A DNA stretch of 37,770 bases from Clostridia bacterium (GTDB lineage Bacteria > Bacillota > Peptococcia > Peptococcales > BICA1-8): NCBI GenBank assembly GCA_012720075.1, contig JAAXZE010000160.1, positions 1 to 37,770 on the forward strand, written 5' to 3'. Positions 194 to 30,024 of the stretch are shown piece by piece. Every line of letters starts with the position of its first letter. The first letter of the stretch is position 1. The notes beneath the pieces are model-generated. The model worked only from the letters and a program-made list of their open reading frames with translations. It did no database searches and was not told the DNA's origin. A program made the position numbers and the translations under genes.

Positions 194-1858
194 ATGTATG
201 CATTTGCGGCATTTTTGCCCATTCTGGTGACAATCATTTTGATGGCAGCTTTTAACTGGCCTGCTAAAAAGGCTCTTCCCATTTCCTGGCTATTATCATG
301 TATAATCGCTTTAACTATTTGGCAAATGGATTTTCAACACGTGTTAGGTTATTCCATTTACGGTGTTGGTAAGGCTTTTGACGTACTGGTAATTATTTTT
401 GGCGCAATTTTAATTCTTAATACTTTAAAACAATCCGGTGCCATGGCTACCATTAACAATGGTTTCATGGGTGTTTCCAAAGACCGTCGCGTTCAAGCAA
501 TAATTGTCGGTTGGATGTTCGGTGCCTTTATCGAAGGTGCTGCCGGTTTCGGTACTCCCGCCGCATTAGCCGGTCCACTGCTTGTTGGTCTTGGTTTCCC
601 GCCATTGGCAGCCGCTCTGGTTGCACTTATTTTTAACAGTACTCCGGTTTCCTTCGGTGCCGTTGGTACTCCCATTGCCGGTGCTATGAGTACCATTGCC
701 GGAAACCTTAACAATGCCGGTTTTGATGCAGCCCGTACTGCAGAATTCAACCTGGCTTTAGCCAAATATGTAGCTCTTTTCCATTCTATGTGCGGTGTTT
801 TTGTTCCTCTGTTAGGTATCTGCTTAATGACTTATTTCTTCGGCAAGGAAAAATCACTTAAACATGGTTTGGCTGCTGCACCATTTGCTATTTTTGCCGG
901 TATCTGCTTCGTTGTTCCTTATCTGATTACCGCTTGGACTTTAGGTCCTGAGTTCCCATCATTGGTTGGTTCCTTAATCGGATTAGTGATTGTTGTTTTG
1001 GCTGCTAAGAATAATTTCTTCACACCCAAAACTCCTTGGGATTTCCCGGACAAATCCGAATGGGCCGATGAATGGAAATCCGTCGTTGATACCGGTGATG
1101 TCGGCGAAGCCAAAATGTCTTTGGTCAAAGCTTGGACTCCTTATGTTATCATAGCATTAATACTTGTTGTTTCCCGTGTTCCCGCTTTCGGGCTTAAAGC
1201 ATGGATGTCGGCTCAGATGATTAAATTCCCCATTCCTGGTGTAGAAGGATTAACTTATAATTTACAATACCTGTGGTTACCCGGTACCGTGCCCTTTATC
1301 CTGGTAGCATTACTGACCCATGTTATCCATGGTATGAATGGCGAACAAATATCCGCTGCCTGGAAGAATACCTTCAAACAGATTACCGGTGCTGCCATTG
1401 CCTTAGTAGCCGGTGTTGCTATGGTACAGTTAATGCTTAATTCCCATGTTAACGCCGGTGGTTTGGACAGTATGATGACTGCGATGGCTAAGGCCGCTGC
1501 AGGTATTGCCGGAGCCAGCTTCCCATTCTTTGCACCCTTTATAGGAATACTGGGAGCCTTCATTTCCGGTTCCAATACTGTTTCCAACATTCTGTTCGCT
1601 TCCTTCCAGTTTGAAACTGCATCAATTCTTCAGATGCCACAGATCCTCATTGTTGCTATGCAGGTTATCGGTGGCGCCATTGGTAACATGATTTGCGTTA
1701 ACAACGTTGTTGCCGCCTGTGCAACCGTGGGTGCTATCGGTGTTGAAGGATTGATTATCCGTAGAAACTCCATACCATGCTTCATTTACGCCATTATCGT
1801 AGCAATCGTTGTTTCCAGTCTGATCTACAGTGGATTTAACCCATTCCCAATTAACTAG
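194..1858 (+). CDS. lldP: L-lactate permease (LldP/LctP family)
   Basis: A 554-residue polytopic membrane protein, close to the roughly 550 residues usual for LldP. It is hydrophobic throughout, with about a dozen predicted membrane segments, an N-terminal segment from residue 2 and glycine-rich stretches such as [11 protein letters not shown] (about 114-124) that are typical of the family. LldP proteins import lactate, and often glycolate, by proton symport. The two genes downstream encode a lactate/glycolate dehydrogenase, which supports lactate as the substrate. The ATG is preceded by GTGAGGAGG at 176-184 with good spacing. The codon use is strongly biased (many GGT, GTT, TCC), which suggests high expression. 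The family call is firm; the preferred stereoisomer cannot be read from the sequence. Confidence 0.95.
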
Positions 1859-1897
1859 AAATTTGTTGCCGGAAAGTTAAAAAAATTTTATAATTGT

Positions 1898-1925
1898 TTA
1901 AGGGGAGAAGCTATTCTCCCCTTAA
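1898..1925 (+). terminator. Perfect stem-loop between lldP and glcD
   Basis: A 12-bp perfect stem, TTAAGGGGAGAA pairing with TTCTCCCCTTAA, closed by a GCTA loop. No run of T follows, so it is a poor intrinsic terminator. It could instead be a partial terminator or an mRNA-stabilising hairpin that sets different levels for the permease and the dehydrogenase. Confidence 0.6.
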
Positions 1926-1980
1926 CTATCTATTTGAGTTTTCTAAATTATTCTGAATTTTTGGTGAGGAGGGATTTCTA

Positions 1981-3372
1981 TTGTTATCTCAAAATATTTT
2001 GAATGAGTTAATTAAGATTGTTGGCAAAGAAAATGTTTTGACTTCTAAAGAAGATTTGATCACTTATTCCTTTGACGGAACTGCTGATGTTCCCCATATT
2101 TTGCCTGATGTAGTTGTTACTCCTACAACCAAGGAACAAATTGTTAAAATCGTAAAATTGGCATCCCAACACAAAATTCCCATTACTACCAGGGGTTCCG
2201 GTACCAATTTAAGTGGTGGCACTATCCCCGTTGAAAATGGTATTGTGTTATCGATGTTGAAATTTGATAAAATTTTGGAAATTGATGCTGAAAATTTAGT
2301 CGCAGTTGTTCAGCCTGGTTTAGTAATCCAAAGACTTAATGAAGCAGTGGCACCTTATGGTTTGATTTATCCGCCCGACCCCGGAACTGTAACAACAGCT
2401 ACCATGGGTGGCTCGGTCAGTGAATGTTCCGGTGGACTGAGAGGCTTAAAATATGGTGTTACCAAAGATTATGTAATGGGTCTTGAAGTGGTAATGGCCA
2501 ATGGGGATATTATTAGGACAGGCGGTAAAACCGTTAAAAACGTTAGCGGCTATGACCTGACCAAATTATTTACCGGTGCTGAAGGCACATTGGGAATCAT
2601 TACTGAAATTACAGTGAAACTGATTCCGGCTCCCAAATACAGAAGAAGTATGTTGGCTATTTTCGATAATATTGAAAATGCTGGTAAAGCTATTGCCGAT
2701 ATTATCAAGAACCAGGTTATTCCCGCTACACTGGAAATAATGGATAACGTTACTATTCGTACTGTCGAAAATTATGCCAAGATTGGTTTACCCACCGATG
2801 CGGCTGCGATTTTGGTTATAGAAGTTGACGGAAGTGTTGAACAGGTTGTTTTAAATGAATTTGATACAGTACAAAGAATCTGTAAAGAAGACGGTGCAAC
2901 CCAAATTAAAATTGCTAACAGTGATAAAGAAAGAGATTCCATCTTTGCCGCACGCCGTGCAGCTTTGCCGGCCTTGGCTCAGGTTAAACCAACCACTGTT
3001 TTAGAAGATGCTACCGTTCCCAGAAGCAAGATTCCGGATATGCTGAAAGCTTTGGATGAAATTGCTAAGAAATATAATCTGAAAATAGGAACCTTTGGTC
3101 ATGCCGGTGACGGCAATCTCCATCCGACCATTTTAACCGATGAATCCAATACTGAAGAAATGGAAAGAGTTCATAAAGCCGTTGATGAAATATTCAAAGT
3201 TGCTTTAGAATTAGGCGGAACATTATCCGGTGAACATGGCATAGGTATGGCAAAAGCTAAATATATGGAGTTGCAATTTGGTAAAGAAGGAATGGCAGTA
3301 ATGAAAAAGATCAAGGACGCCCTTGATCCTGACGGAATTATGAATCCCGGTAAAATGTTTGGGGGGAATTAA
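1981..3372 (+). CDS. glcD: FAD-binding lactate/glycolate dehydrogenase subunit GlcD
   Basis: A 463-residue flavoprotein of the VAO/GlcD family that oxidises a 2-hydroxyacid (D-lactate or glycolate) and passes electrons to a partner Fe-S subunit. The FAD-binding PCMH domain carries TTRGSGTNLSGGTIP at residues 69-83. The C-terminal FAD-oxidase domain carries GHAGDGNLHP near residue 373, GEHGIG, and a final MNPGKMF. The start is TTG, chosen because GGTGAGGAGGG at 1963-1973 lies 7 bases upstream. It is followed after 2 bases by the Fe-S subunit and preceded by lldP, so lactate is the likeliest substrate. The related Acetobacterium lactate dehydrogenase uses EtfAB, but no etf gene is present here; the GlcF partner argues for electron flow to the membrane. 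Confidence 0.9.
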   Translation: MLSQNILNELIKIVGKENVLTSKEDLITYSFDGTADVPHILPDVVVTPTTKEQIVKIVKLASQHKIPITTRGSGTNLSGGTIPVENGIVLSMLKFDKILEIDAENLVAVVQPGLVIQRLNEAVAPYGLIYPPDPGTVTTATMGGSVSECSGGLRGLKYGVTKDYVMGLEVVMANGDIIRTGGKTVKNVSGYDLTKLFTGAEGTLGIITEITVKLIPAPKYRRSMLAIFDNIENAGKAIADIIKNQVIPATLEIMDNVTIRTVENYAKIGLPTDAAAILVIEVDGSVEQVVLNEFDTVQRICKEDGATQIKIANSDKERDSIFAARRAALPALAQVKPTTVLEDATVPRSKIPDMLKALDEIAKKYNLKIGTFGHAGDGNLHPTILTDESNTEEMERVHKAVDEIFKVALELGGTLSGEHGIGMAKAKYMELQFGKEGMAVMKKIKDALDPDGIMNPGKMFGGN

Positions 3373-25317: not shown

Positions 25318-26214
25318 ATGCTTTTAAGGATACCGGCAACCAGCGCAAATTTGGGCCCGGGTTTTGATTGTATCGGTATGGCCTTAGATTTATATAATTA
25401 CATCGATTTTGAGGCAGTGGATTCTCCTGGTGCTCTTTCTATAGAAATCTGCGGTGAAGGACAGCATTCTTTAAGTAAAGATGAAACAAACCTTGTCTAC
25501 CAGGCTTTCAGTCGAGTGTTTGCCGGAAGAAGGGAGCCCATTCCGGGCATTAAATTTAAATTAATAAACAATATACCTTTGGCTCGGGGGTTAGGAAGTA
25601 GTTCAGCGGCCATTATTGGCGGTATTTTGGCCGCTAACTTCCTTTTGGCGGAGAAACTCAGCATCGAGGAAATGTTGGACATAGCCTTGGAATTTGAGGG
25701 TCACCCTGATAACATCGCCCCTGCTTTACTAGGGGGCATAGTCCTTTGTACAGCTAACAATCAAGGTTTTCATTATCTTAAAATGAACCCTCCGGAGGGT
25801 ATTTTTTGTACGGTGTTAATTCCCGATTATGAGCTTTCGACTAAAAAAGCCAGGGATATTTTACCCGGTACCGTACCCTTAAAGGATGCCGTTTTTAATA
25901 TCGGTAAAATGGGCTTGCTTATCAATGCTATCAATACCGGTAATTTAGATTTATTAAAAGAAGCTATTGACGATAAGTTGCACCAACCCTATAGGTGCAG
26001 TCTCATCCCGGGGTTAAATGATTTAATTATTCTGGCCAAGGATTCAAAAGTCTTAGGCTTGGCCATAAGCGGAGCCGGCCCCTCGATAATAATTTTTCAT
26101 AAAAATGATGATCTTGATGAGGTTATGCTGTTTCAAAATTATCTATTAGAAAAAGGAATTTCTTCCCGGCTTATTAATCTTAAACCTGTAGCCGAAGGTG
26201 CACAATTGGTTTAG
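25318..26214 (+). CDS. thrB: Homoserine kinase
   Basis: A 298-residue GHMP-family kinase that phosphorylates homoserine. It begins LLRIPATSANLGPGFDCIG, the family N-terminus, and has the ATP-binding PLARGLGSSSAAIIGG (about 88-102) and the C-terminal LAISGAGPSIIIF motif. ATG 25318 is preferred; AAAGGA (25300-25305) is 12 bases upstream, slightly long, while the alternative TTG at 25306 is jammed against it. It stands between hom and aspartate kinase; threonine synthase (thrC) is not in the window. Confidence 0.95.
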   Translation: MLLRIPATSANLGPGFDCIGMALDLYNYIDFEAVDSPGALSIEICGEGQHSLSKDETNLVYQAFSRVFAGRREPIPGIKFKLINNIPLARGLGSSSAAIIGGILAANFLLAEKLSIEEMLDIALEFEGHPDNIAPALLGGIVLCTANNQGFHYLKMNPPEGIFCTVLIPDYELSTKKARDILPGTVPLKDAVFNIGKMGLLINAINTGNLDLLKEAIDDKLHQPYRCSLIPGLNDLIILAKDSKVLGLAISGAGPSIIIFHKNDDLDEVMLFQNYLLEKGISSRLINLKPVAEGAQLV

Positions 26215-26227
26215 TAAGGAGGCAAAT

Positions 26228-27451
26228 ATGGCACTAATAGTACAAAAATACGGTGGTAGTTCTGTAGGTAATGTTGAACGAATTAAAAGGGTTGCAAAAA
26301 ATATTTCTAATACCCGTTCCCAGGGAAATCAAATGGTTGTTGTTGTTTCGGCTGTTGCTGATACAACAGACGAACTTATTTCTTTAGCAAAACAAATTAA
26401 TCCGAAGCCATCCAGCAGGGAGATGGATATGCTTTTAGCTACCGGTGAGCAGGTATCAATTGCCTTGCTGGCTATGGCTTTAGAAGCCATTAATGTTCCG
26501 GTAATTTCATTTACCGGACCTCAGGTAGGTATTATTACCGATAATGTCCATACTAAAGCCCGCATAAAGCAAATAAACACCGAAAAAATTGAAGGAGAAC
26601 TGGCCAAAGATAAAGTAGTAATCGTGGCCGGGTTTCAAGGGAAAACCATTGATGATGAAATCACTACTTTGGGCAGGGGAGGTTCCGACACCACTGCCGT
26701 TGCCTTAGCCGCGGCATTGAAAGCCGATTTATGCGAAATATACACCGATGTAGAAGGTGTTTTTACAACTGACCCTCGCATAGTTCCTAAAGCCAGCAAA
26801 CTGGACCGGATAACCTATGACGAGATGTTGGAATTGGCTACTTTAGGGGCAAAGGTGTTACATCCCCGATCAGTGGAACTGGCAAAATTATATGATGTTA
26901 AATTATGTGTACGTTCTAGTTTTGTAAATAAGGAGGGAACCTTTGTAGTGAAAAACCAGCTAATAGAAAAGGATTTGGTAGTTACAGGACTGGCCTATGA
27001 CCTTAATGTAGCAAAAATTGGAGTATTTGATGTTCCGGACGAACCGGGCATAGCCAGCAAAATTTTTGATGGACTGGCCGTGGCAAATATCAATGTGGAT
27101 ATGATTGTTCAGAGTGCCATGAGAAACAATATAAATGACATTGCTTTTACAGTTCCCAAGGATGATCTGGATAAAGCCCTGCAAATAGTGGAAGAGATAG
27201 GCAAAGAAATAGGTGCTTCCGAAATTACTCATGCTGATGATTTGGCTAAAGTTTCTATAGTAGGAGCCGGTATGATTAGCTCTCCCGGCGTAGCAGCGAA
27301 AATGTTTCATATTTTGGCTGAAAATAATATTAATATAGAAATGATCAGTACTTCCGAAATAAAAGTTTCCTGTATAATAAAAAGCAATGAAGTAGAAAAA
27401 GCTATTCAGGCTTTACATGACGGTTTTGAATTGGATAAAATTAATTCCTAA
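26228..27451 (+). CDS. lysC: Aspartate kinase
   Basis: A 407-residue kinase phosphorylating aspartate, the first step to lysine, threonine and methionine. KYGGSSV lies at residues 7-13, with FTGPQVGI, TTLGRGGSDTTAVALAAAL and TDVEGVFTTDPR in the kinase domain, and two ACT-type repeats after about residue 265 (FDVPDEPGIASKIF and GAGMISSPGVAAKMF). This is the feedback-regulated class, but lysine versus threonine control cannot be told by eye. ATG 26228 sits 5 bases after AAGGAGG; a longer in-frame start at 26198 overlaps thrB and is less likely. Confidence 0.95.
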   Translation: MALIVQKYGGSSVGNVERIKRVAKNISNTRSQGNQMVVVVSAVADTTDELISLAKQINPKPSSREMDMLLATGEQVSIALLAMALEAINVPVISFTGPQVGIITDNVHTKARIKQINTEKIEGELAKDKVVIVAGFQGKTIDDEITTLGRGGSDTTAVALAAALKADLCEIYTDVEGVFTTDPRIVPKASKLDRITYDEMLELATLGAKVLHPRSVELAKLYDVKLCVRSSFVNKEGTFVVKNQLIEKDLVVTGLAYDLNVAKIGVFDVPDEPGIASKIFDGLAVANINVDMIVQSAMRNNINDIAFTVPKDDLDKALQIVEEIGKEIGASEITHADDLAKVSIVGAGMISSPGVAAKMFHILAENNINIEMISTSEIKVSCIIKSNEVEKAIQALHDGFELDKINS

Positions 27452-27479
27452 AGAACATCATTAAACTTGCATATAAATA

Positions 27480-27508
27480 TTGACATCAATGTTCTTATTT
27501 GTTATTAT
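27480..27508 (+). promoter_or_regulatory. Sigma-A promoter of tRNA-Pro
   Basis: Consensus TTGACA (27480-27485), a 17-base spacer and TATTAT (27503-27508). The predicted transcript start falls about 7 bases before the mature tRNA. Confidence 0.85.
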
Positions 27509-27521
27509 ATACTTTGTCAGT

Positions 27522-27598
27522 CGGGGCGTGGCTCAGCTTGGTAGAGCGCTACCTTGGGGTGGTAGAGGTCGCACGTTCAAATCGTGTCGCTCCGACCA
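27522..27598 (+). tRNA. tRNA-Pro (anticodon GGG)
   Basis: A 77-base cloverleaf. The acceptor CGGGGCG pairs with CGCTCCG (one G-U), the D stem is GCTC/GAGC and the anticodon stem CTACC/GGTAG encloses TTGGGGT, giving anticodon GGG. The T stem GCACG/CGTGT has loop TTCAAAT. Discriminator A and an encoded CCA end the gene. Confidence 0.97.
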
Positions 27599-27616
27599 TT
27601 TTCCATAATTAAAAAG

Positions 27617-27650
27617 AAACCCTAAGCAAATTGGTGCTTAGGGTTTTATT
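27617..27650 (+). terminator. Intrinsic terminator after tRNA-Pro
   Basis: AAACCCTAAGCA pairs perfectly with TGCTTAGGGTTT around an AATTGG loop, followed by a T-rich tail. Confidence 0.9.
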
Positions 27651-27675
27651 TTGGGTTCTGTGTCAAATGTTGGGG

Positions 27676-27702
27676 TGACAGGTATTTAGTCAATACCTGT
27701 CA
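27676..27702 (+). repeat. 11-bp palindrome, possible REP-like or mobile-element end
   Basis: TGACAGGTATT and AATACCTGTCA flank a TAGTC loop. The sequence just before, TGTCAAATGTTGGGG, shares TGTCA with the arms. No second copy occurs in the window. It could be a hairpin terminator (TCTCTTTTT follows) or the scar of a small element. Confidence 0.5.
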
Positions 27703-27800
27703 TCTCTTTTTATGAACATTAATGAAGGATTCTGGTTCGGAACCGGCTAAAGTTCAAGACCATTCTTAACTGGAAACAAGAAATACTGAACTCCTTTTAA

Positions 27801-27953
27801 TGTAGCATTTTTGTGCAATGGATAAGGCCAAGATTTATAAGGAAACAGTGGGAGAAAATAACGACTAAAGCCAATAAGTTAATGAAATTGGGTATTCCAA
27901 AATTTAAAGCTTGGGAATTGAAAAATATAGGAAAGGCTATTGGAGAAATTTAA
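27801..27953 (+). pseudogene. Remnant of group II intron reverse transcriptase/maturase C-terminus
   Basis: An open stretch of 50 codons without a start codon reads, in pieces, QWIRPRFIRKQWEKI, then TTKANKLMKLGIPKFKAWEL, then KNIGKAIGEI and a stop. Group II intron-encoded proteins end with a very similar pattern (WIRRR-R, WKQWK, a basic helix, LG-K-KAWE-A and a GYWR segment). An in-frame TAA lies directly upstream and no RT domain remains. No intron domain V structure is obvious behind it. I read it as a decayed fragment of an insertion that once lay behind the tRNA. Recognition is from memory of the family, not a search. Confidence 0.62.
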
Positions 27954-28236
27954 AGACGGTGAAAAAAAAATTATTCATGTCTTCCTCGATTATTTTTTAT
28001 TGTAATATGTCGTTTGGTGAAGTATTATATACATTATTGAAAGGTAGCTAAAGAATACGCTTTTTTTATATTAAGGATTAAGGGCAGCATATTTTTGTGC
28101 TCTTTCTTGCCAGGGCGTAAAAACTATATTTTTTCTTATACTTATGATAAAATAAAAAGCTGTGAAAGTATTTTTGCAGGACTTTTTATTTTTTACAAGA
28201 ATTACTAATAAGTTGTGGTTTTAAAGGAGGGCTTTT
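27954..28236 (+). other. AT-rich gap, no gene; leader of hepS
   Basis: No convincing reading frame or RNA gene is visible. A possible promoter is TTGTAA (28000-28005), 17 bases, TATTAT (28023-28028), which would give a leader of about 200 bases. AAAAAGCTG and CAGGACTTTTT (28155 region on) make only an imperfect hairpin. Together with the tRNA terminator, palindrome and maturase remnant, this completes the gene-poor stretch 27599-28236. Confidence 0.5.
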
Positions 28237-29007
28237 ATGAATATTAAAGTAAGAAATTTTGACTTGGAATTAACCTTAATTTTAGCCCGTGTTTATAAAT
28301 ATTTAAAAATTAATTCCGGGATCAGTATAGATATTCTAAATACTAAATTTTCCAAATTGGATATGTCCTTTTACCCCATATTGGCTTTATTAGCCGCCCA
28401 ATGTTCCAAAGGATTGTCGAAAAAGAACCGGACATTGGCAGTAGCTAGTCAGGTATTGTTTTTGTCTACGGAAATTCATAATCAAATTCCGGAAAATGCC
28501 GGGAAAAATCAATTTGCTAAACAAATCCAATTGCCTATACTGGTGGGGGATCTGCTCTTTAGCCGTTTTTATGAAATCTTATGTAAAGAAGACTGTATTG
28601 AATATCTTAATCATTATCTGGATTATATAGCTAATTTAAATCATAAGTGGGTAGATTATTTGGAACAAAAGATTGATATAGAAGAATTATCTGCTAATTG
28701 TTACGGGGAATTGGCTTCTTTAGTAATGGAGTTGAATATGAACATCAACAGCAATACAAATTACTGGACTAAAATCGTAAAAAGATATGGTTATGCCATG
28801 GGTAACTTGTATGGTGCATATAAATTAAATTTAGGCCAAAAGGAAATTATAAAGTACTGGGATATGGTTTTAGAAACCATTGATTTAATGCCGGGAGGAG
28901 AAATTAAGGATAGTTTCAGCCAATTTGCCCAGGAACTATATTATAATTTATTCCAAAACCTTATTCCTGAAAATCGTGTTCCCCTTTCTTGCGTTGCAGA
29001 AAAGTGA
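28237..29007 (+). CDS. HepS-like component I of polyprenyl diphosphate synthase
   Basis: A 256-residue, all-helical protein resembling the non-catalytic subunit of heptaprenyl diphosphate synthase (HEPPP_synt_1 family). The family-like part is LAVASQVLFLSTEIHNQI (about 68-85) followed by LPILVGDLLFSRFYEILC (about 98-115). It lacks the DDxxD motifs of a catalytic prenyl transferase. It lies 39 bases before the catalytic gene, as in two-component enzymes. The ATG sits 5 bases after AAAGGAGGG. The similarity is moderate, so the call depends partly on position. Confidence 0.72.
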   Translation: MNIKVRNFDLELTLILARVYKYLKINSGISIDILNTKFSKLDMSFYPILALLAAQCSKGLSKKNRTLAVASQVLFLSTEIHNQIPENAGKNQFAKQIQLPILVGDLLFSRFYEILCKEDCIEYLNHYLDYIANLNHKWVDYLEQKIDIEELSANCYGELASLVMELNMNINSNTNYWTKIVKRYGYAMGNLYGAYKLNLGQKEIIKYWDMVLETIDLMPGGEIKDSFSQFAQELYYNLFQNLIPENRVPLSCVAEK

Positions 29008-29046: not shown

Positions 29047-30024
29047 ATGACCAATGTCTTTGTTTTTAATGAAATAAAAAAGGAATTGGCAAGTGTAGAA
29101 AAATTTTTGGAGCAATATACCGATTTTTCTCATTCCGAGCTAAAAAAGAGTGCCCATCATACGCTAAAAGCTGGTGGAAAGAGAATTAGACCGGCTTTTG
29201 TATTATTAGCCGGAAAGATTTATAACCAAGACAAAACATATGATTTAATTCCTTTGGCTGCCGCAATGGAATTAATCCATATGTCTTCCTTGGTTCATGA
29301 CGATGTTATCGATCAAGCAGATATTAGACGGGGCAAATCTACTGTTAGGGTCCTTTGGGGTAATAAATTCTCCCTTCATTGCGGGGACTATTTATTAGCC
29401 CAAGCTACCAAACTGATAAGACCGGAAGAAAATAAAGAAATCGCTAATGTGCTGGCCAATATGAGTGTGGAAATGTGTCAGGGAGAAATCCGGCAGCTGT
29501 TATCCCTTTTTGACACTACCCAAACAATTAGGAATTATTTTTATCGGATAAAAAGAAAAACGGCATTATTAATTGCCGCCAGCTGCAAAATAGGAGCTTT
29601 GGCAACCAATGCCCCTAAAGAGGCTGTTAATGCCTTATACAAATATGGTTATTATATTGGGATGGCTTTTCAAATTAAAGATGATTGTTTGGACATGCAA
29701 GGCAGTAGTAGTGTCATCGGTAAACCGGCAGGCAGTGATTTAGCCCAAGGGATTATTACCTTGCCTACTATTTTTGCTTTACGGGGAAAGGGAGAGGAAA
29801 GCAGAAAATTAAATAGTTTGATAAAATCTAAGTTTGCCAATGGCAAAGAAGACCTGGACCGAGCTTTAGATATTGTCCGCAACAGCGGCGGTATTGAAAA
29901 AGCATTGTCTATTTCTAATAAATACATTAATAAAGCCAAGAAGCAATTGCAAATTTTGCCGTCAGGGTCTATAAAAAATAGTCTGGAGCAAATTGCAGAT
30001 TATATAACTGAAAGGGATTATTGA
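29047..30024 (+). CDS. hepT: Polyprenyl (heptaprenyl-type) diphosphate synthase
   Basis: A 325-residue trans-prenyltransferase extending farnesyl diphosphate with IPP to the side chain of menaquinone. The first Asp-rich motif is HDDVIDQADIRRGKSTVR (about 80-97), the second is FQIKDDCLDMQG (about 208-219), and GGKRIRPAFVLLAG lies near residue 42. The absence of bulky residues cannot be judged by eye, so the chain length is open. Pairing with the HepS-like gene favours the heptaprenyl type. It is 1 base from the next gene, so quinone and tetrapyrrole genes share a transcript. Confidence 0.88.
   Translation: MTNVFVFNEIKKELASVEKFLEQYTDFSHSELKKSAHHTLKAGGKRIRPAFVLLAGKIYNQDKTYDLIPLAAAMELIHMSSLVHDDVIDQADIRRGKSTVRVLWGNKFSLHCGDYLLAQATKLIRPEENKEIANVLANMSVEMCQGEIRQLLSLFDTTQTIRNYFYRIKRKTALLIAASCKIGALATNAPKEAVNALYKYGYYIGMAFQIKDDCLDMQGSSSVIGKPAGSDLAQGIITLPTIFALRGKGEESRKLNSLIKSKFANGKEDLDRALDIVRNSGGIEKALSISNKYINKAKKQLQILPSGSIKNSLEQIADYITERDY

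Follow-up and report, generated by a model that had tools for sequence, protein, structure and literature searches.

Truncated group II introns adjoining other mobile DNA are the usual state of such introns in bacteria according to a review (PMC4424553), and a survey of Enterobacteriales (PMC3522654) reports that the genome in which an intron fragment is found generally lacks any counterpart of that intron. Here we describe a locus that resembles these cases. It lies within a stretch of 37,770 nt that was analysed as a whole and is referred to below as the window. Judged by homology, positions 27816–27946 are what is left of the C-terminal part of a reverse transcriptase (RT)/maturase encoded by a group II intron, and they are situated between a tRNA-Pro gene and a hepS-like gene. 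We consider it close to certain that this tail represents a genomic fossil of a group II intron that once resided either here or in DNA that was brought in.

The gap is the longest one of the window, measuring 785 bp with the tRNA counted, whereas the second-longest measures 221 bp (gaps between open reading frames of at least 130 aa). This is in agreement with a preliminary description of the same DNA, in which the region was called the only gene-poor stretch. On the left the gap is bordered by an aspartokinase gene (26198–27451; Pfam AA_kinase plus ACT) and on the right by the hepS-like gene (28237–29007), for which the Pfam model HEPPP_synt_1 scored 26.4 bits, just under the cut-off of 30 bits; the gene at 29047–30024 matched polyprenyl_synt. 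A consensus scan of both strands of 27440–28260 detected four terminator-like sites, as compared to a mean of 0.4 in shuffled sequences. The features of the region are as follows.

27522..27598, plus strand: tRNA-Pro (GGG anticodon), left border of the gap (ARAGORN; Rfam tRNA, 59 bits)
27616..27647, plus strand: terminator-like hairpin 3′ of the tRNA (consensus scan)
27654..27755, minus strand: ISL3-family end fragment with the terminal inverted repeat, a palindrome and the last transposase codons with an internal stop (DNA and protein match)
27756..27797, plus strand: internal ISL3 transposase fragment, inverted relative to the preceding piece (DNA and protein match)
27816..27946, plus strand: decayed remnant of a group II intron RT/maturase, C-terminal part (tblastn, profile, frameshift-tolerant alignment, DNA match)
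28127..28236, plus strand: leader of the hepS-like gene, conserved with a relative, where the variable part of the gap ends on the right (70% identity to L021:1369–1495, E 4e-13; match 28127–28243)

The tail is contained in an open frame of 50 codons (27801–27950) that ends at a stop codon (27951–27953) and is directly preceded by a TAA (27798–27800), as the preliminary description had stated. Its remark that a start codon is missing was accurate only in part, because an in-frame GTG at 27813 provides a nominal start for a 46-aa reading frame. Six RT proteins all matched this place by tblastn with E-values from 0.017 to 2e-7, the frame-1 match covering 27816–27950 at most. Thus, the translated search against group II intron proteins that had been proposed as a check supported the initial identification. 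In a profile search with 12 tails, the frame ranked first in the window with 32.4 bits (E 5.5e-9), while the next frame reached 6.1 bits; among 100 random windows with matching dinucleotide composition, none exceeded 11.6 bits. Frameshift-tolerant alignment resulted in scores of 124 for the L050 homologue and 123 for the L072 homologue, whereas none of the 60 random sequences aligned with each of them exceeded 37 and 39, respectively. The scores of this aligner are reliable, whereas the gap places that it prints are not, since its trace-back does not follow long gaps. The random controls were generated according to first-order dinucleotide frequencies, taken from the window or from the stretch under test, and were not exact shuffles. 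At the DNA level, the tail could be aligned with L050 over 143 columns at 66% identity (E 8e-12).

The profile tails and the proteins of the frameshift test had been picked for matching the window, which inflates their scores somewhat. A search of plasmids is free of this bias. Here, tblastn of the 50 residues matched 62 records with a best listed E-value of 0.02, and for 16 of the 20 records listed out of these 62 the match was located inside a gene annotated as ltrA or group II intron maturase. A search of 60 genomes, our own included, gave matches at E≤1 in 23 of them, the best foreign match having an E-value of 1.3e-6 at 48% identity. This search delivered 29 loci (L050–L078), and frames were matched in 25. 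By eye, 16 of these frames were RT tails and one more (L054) was perhaps another, while 8 were other proteins, so that part of the weak matches must be due to chance. The profile was built from 12 of the 25 frames.

All three homologues that were scanned for domains (L053, L050 and L072) contained both RVT_1 and GIIM. The L053 homologue is a protein of 475 aa, while L050 and L072 are partial frames; L050, the closest match, holds part of an RT frame only. Moreover, group II intron RNA was detected by Rfam in six of ten homologue loci (L053, L056, L057, L058, L071 and L074), and none was found at the gathering score in the other four (L050, L051, L072 and L075). Because its homologues carry RVT_1 and GIIM, and intron RNA accompanies six of the ten loci, the tail belongs to the group II intron proteins. 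Six homologue frames stop 31–35 residues past the motif RK(G/S)YWR, which leaves no room for an endonuclease domain.

The family scans had a different outcome. Pfam and NCBIfam named no RT or maturase family for the tail, and phmmer against the PDB returned maspin alone (E 0.69). An NCBIfam match of the frame-3 piece to a fimbrial usher (E 0.12) was weak and unrelated, and was set aside. About half of the matched stretch lies inside the Pfam GIIM model (L053 residues 396–417 of 396–439). The miss by Pfam and NCBIfam may be attributed to a match that is short, gapped and decayed, and a sensitive scan might have caught it. The tail thus exemplifies how family scans can overlook a short, decayed protein end of which half lies outside the GIIM model, while direct comparison with intact relatives can still recover it.

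The homology starts at 27816 and ends at about 27946, and within these limits the coding sequence is broken in two ways. Compared with the intact relatives, three codons are absent directly after QWIRPR or QWIRPRF (9 bases at the DNA level, in one gap), and one base is absent between about 27926 and 27937. The latter lesion results in a frameshift, whereby the RKGYWR motif is now in frame 3, which reads KYRKGYWRN, while frame 1 runs to the stop at 27951. The alignment retains only the last part of the GIIM domain (L053 residues 396–417 of GIIM 345–417), and a complete domain X was not found. The C-terminal end is homologous to intron-encoded proteins; no RT domain and no ribozyme RNA (domain V, D1–D4) were found with it. 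The absence of an RT domain had been noted before, and indeed the six RT proteins gave no match better than E 0.44 in the rest of the window. The covariance search for intron RNA that had been suggested gave a negative result, no group II intron family being present among the Rfam matches in 27430–28330 up to E 10. The other weak Rfam matches in the gap, all under their gathering scores except for the tRNA, were taken for chance.

Genome-wide, RVT_1 gave no match, and RF00029, the sole RNA family tried at this scale, reached 15.9 bits at best against a gathering score of 40. When used as a query against the assembly, the 475-aa RT found the relic place only, with the proviso that RT copies may reside in the assembly gaps between the 206 contigs. 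The weak RF00029 places were in contigs C12 (15.9 bits) and C167 (13.9 bits). Two weak GIIM places, in C142 and C70 (14.3 and 12.6 bits; cut-off 23), were taken for chance, as the RT query found neither.

The preliminary description had regarded the tail as the sole trace of a mobile element in the window. This view has to be abandoned, as fragments assignable by homology to an ISL3-family element (DDE_Tnp_ISL3, with terminal inverted repeats) adjoin it at 27649–27797. The gap DNA matched other places in the same genome, the best of them being an ISL3 element at G000:C48. The end piece (27649–27755) aligns with this element over 108 columns at 90% identity, and the internal piece (27758–27797) is 93% identical over 40 bases to the opposite strand of the same element. 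At the protein level, transposase residues 406–419 are encoded at 27754–27713 on the minus strand, with a stop inside, and residues 365–378 at 27756–27797 on the plus strand. The GGTTCT end also matched the opposite end of the C48 element (E 0.13). Located at a contig end, the latter element (L012, about 1810–3139) has both ends and a 419-aa transposase frame that matches PF01610 (DDE_Tnp_ISL3) at E 8.8e-74. In the window, only one end and two transposase pieces were detected; neither a second ISL3 end nor a complete transposase was found there. A further copy of the ISL3 end is located near the end of contig C89. Contig C82 contains a more diverged one (L014:1980–2067; 82%). Close to it is a small frame in which the motif ETWGGTK is repeated; among the frames of at least 60 aa, no ISL3 transposase was recognized by eye near this copy. 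The ISL3 end includes a 15-pair palindrome followed by T residues (27672–27706) that resembles a terminator and is kept in the C48, C89 and C82 copies. With the last ISL3 base at 27797 and the first base of the intron tail at 27816, the two relics abut.

The gap was also compared with that of related genomes. No match to the tail at E≤1 was obtained in any of the four other genomes of the family; conservation of the short frame as an intact gene, which would have spoken against the initial identification, was thus not observed in these relatives. The relatives searched included no genome of the same genus, and the gap was hence compared in more distant relatives only. A hepS homologue was present in 31 of the 60 genomes, our own included. 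Among the seven hepS loci scanned (L021–L027, at most 1500 bp upstream each), a tRNA-Pro was found beside hepS only in L021, which corresponds to G004:C65 (LADT01000016.1) of Clostridiaceae bacterium BRH_c20a. In this locus a gap of 1192 bp, as compared to 638 bp here, separates the end of the tRNA at 296 from the start of hepS at 1489. The tRNA region is 87% and the hepS leader 70% identical between the two. Nothing corresponding to the ISL3 pieces or the intron tail is present in L021, except for a 20-base match (E 0.18) just after the tail.

These data modify the claim that the intron tail explains the length of the tRNA–hepS gap. The tail does contribute about 131 of the 638 bp. However, the L021 gap was not shorter but longer, and since it contains neither relic, the relics can explain only part of the gap. 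Minus-strand frames occur in the L021 gap (L021:297–1488), and one of them encodes a truncated HTH_3 domain. This suggests that some other element has decayed there, perhaps a prophage or a conjugative element located at the tRNA. The tRNA-Pro/hepS gap is thus a place that gathers mobile-element debris, the intron tail being one item of it. In addition, an AT-rich stretch before the tRNA (27441–27515) weakly matched L021:1310–1386 (E 1.8e-4). The 34 bases just 3′ of the tail (27946–27979), which are AT-rich, showed 82% identity to a sequence in G000:C50 (genome-wide E 0.03), perhaps by chance. The remaining short blastn matches were at or near chance level.

The most likely course of events is an insertion of both elements followed by deletion, local inversion and point decay. 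A group II intron would once have been present in the gap, or in DNA carried into it. Deletions would then have taken the ribozyme together with the RT domain and the greater part of the maturase domain. About 131 bp at the C-terminal end of the coding sequence would have been left, and these would subsequently have decayed via small deletions. An ISL3-family element would also have inserted, and would have been broken and partly inverted, its remains now adjoining the tail. The homology was observed directly, as were the lesions, the pieces of the ISL3 element and the lack of any other RT match in the assembly; the order of insertions and deletions is inferred, and either element may have come first. 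As no RT, intron RNA or intact reading frame was found, the relic cannot work as a retroelement today, and there is no sign of any present function.

Terminator-targeting group II introns (class C) offer a refinement of the fossil reading. In this refinement, which we consider conceivable but improbable, the insertion site of such an intron lay just past the tRNA terminator or the ISL3 palindrome, and later deletions spared nothing but the tail, whose position would be a trace of the targeting. The two hairpins (27616–27647 and 27672–27706) lie upstream on the same strand, and the short ends of the six homologues past RK(G/S)YWR, with no space for an endonuclease, would be consistent with it. 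According to PMC4424553, such introns insert at terminator motifs. On the other hand, the intron RNA and both intron ends are missing, among them the 5′ end that would mark the insertion site, about 44 residues cannot fix an intron class, and the ISL3 remains sit between the tRNA terminator and the tail. It is likewise doubtful that the relic marks the insertion of a terminator-targeting intron in a gap where mobile DNA of unrelated kinds tends to land in this family, for which the other frames of BRH_c20a could be cited. Far less probable is a small intact gene starting at GTG 27813 and recruited from a maturase tail, for instance as a domesticated DNA- or RNA-binding peptide; the 46-aa frame with its nominal start is present, but it has lost three codons, its conserved end is frameshifted and it occurs in none of the four other family genomes. 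Equally hard to credit is the view that a frame rich in AT and lysine resembles the basic tail of a maturase by accident, for although the Pfam, NCBIfam and PDB searches named no RT, the profile and frameshift-tolerant scores are far outside those of random sequences, the match extends to the DNA, and the homology goes on in a second frame at the right place.

A genomic fossil of a group II intron is therefore the reading that we retain. It is an ordinary fossil of a known kind and matters little beyond annotation. It shows that this lineage was once reached by a group II intron, even though no other RT match was found in the assembly. Like the ISL3 element at G000:C48, the window has one terminal inverted repeat, the palindrome and two transposase pieces at 90–93% DNA identity; unlike it, the window copy has shrunk to about 145 bp, its internal piece is inverted, and a stop interrupts the transposase end. 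With the RT/maturases lacking an endonuclease domain (L050, L053, L056, L058, L071 and L072), the relic shares the order of EWIRRR...WKQWKK...NLxxLG...KAWExANTRKGYWR at 37–48% identity. It differs from them in that this stretch alone survives, with three codons and one base lost, with no RT, only the end of GIIM and no intron RNA. With the truncated bacterial group II introns described in PMC4424553 and PMC3522654, the relic has in common that it is truncated and adjoins other mobile DNA, and it is distinguished from them by its host lineage and its locus.
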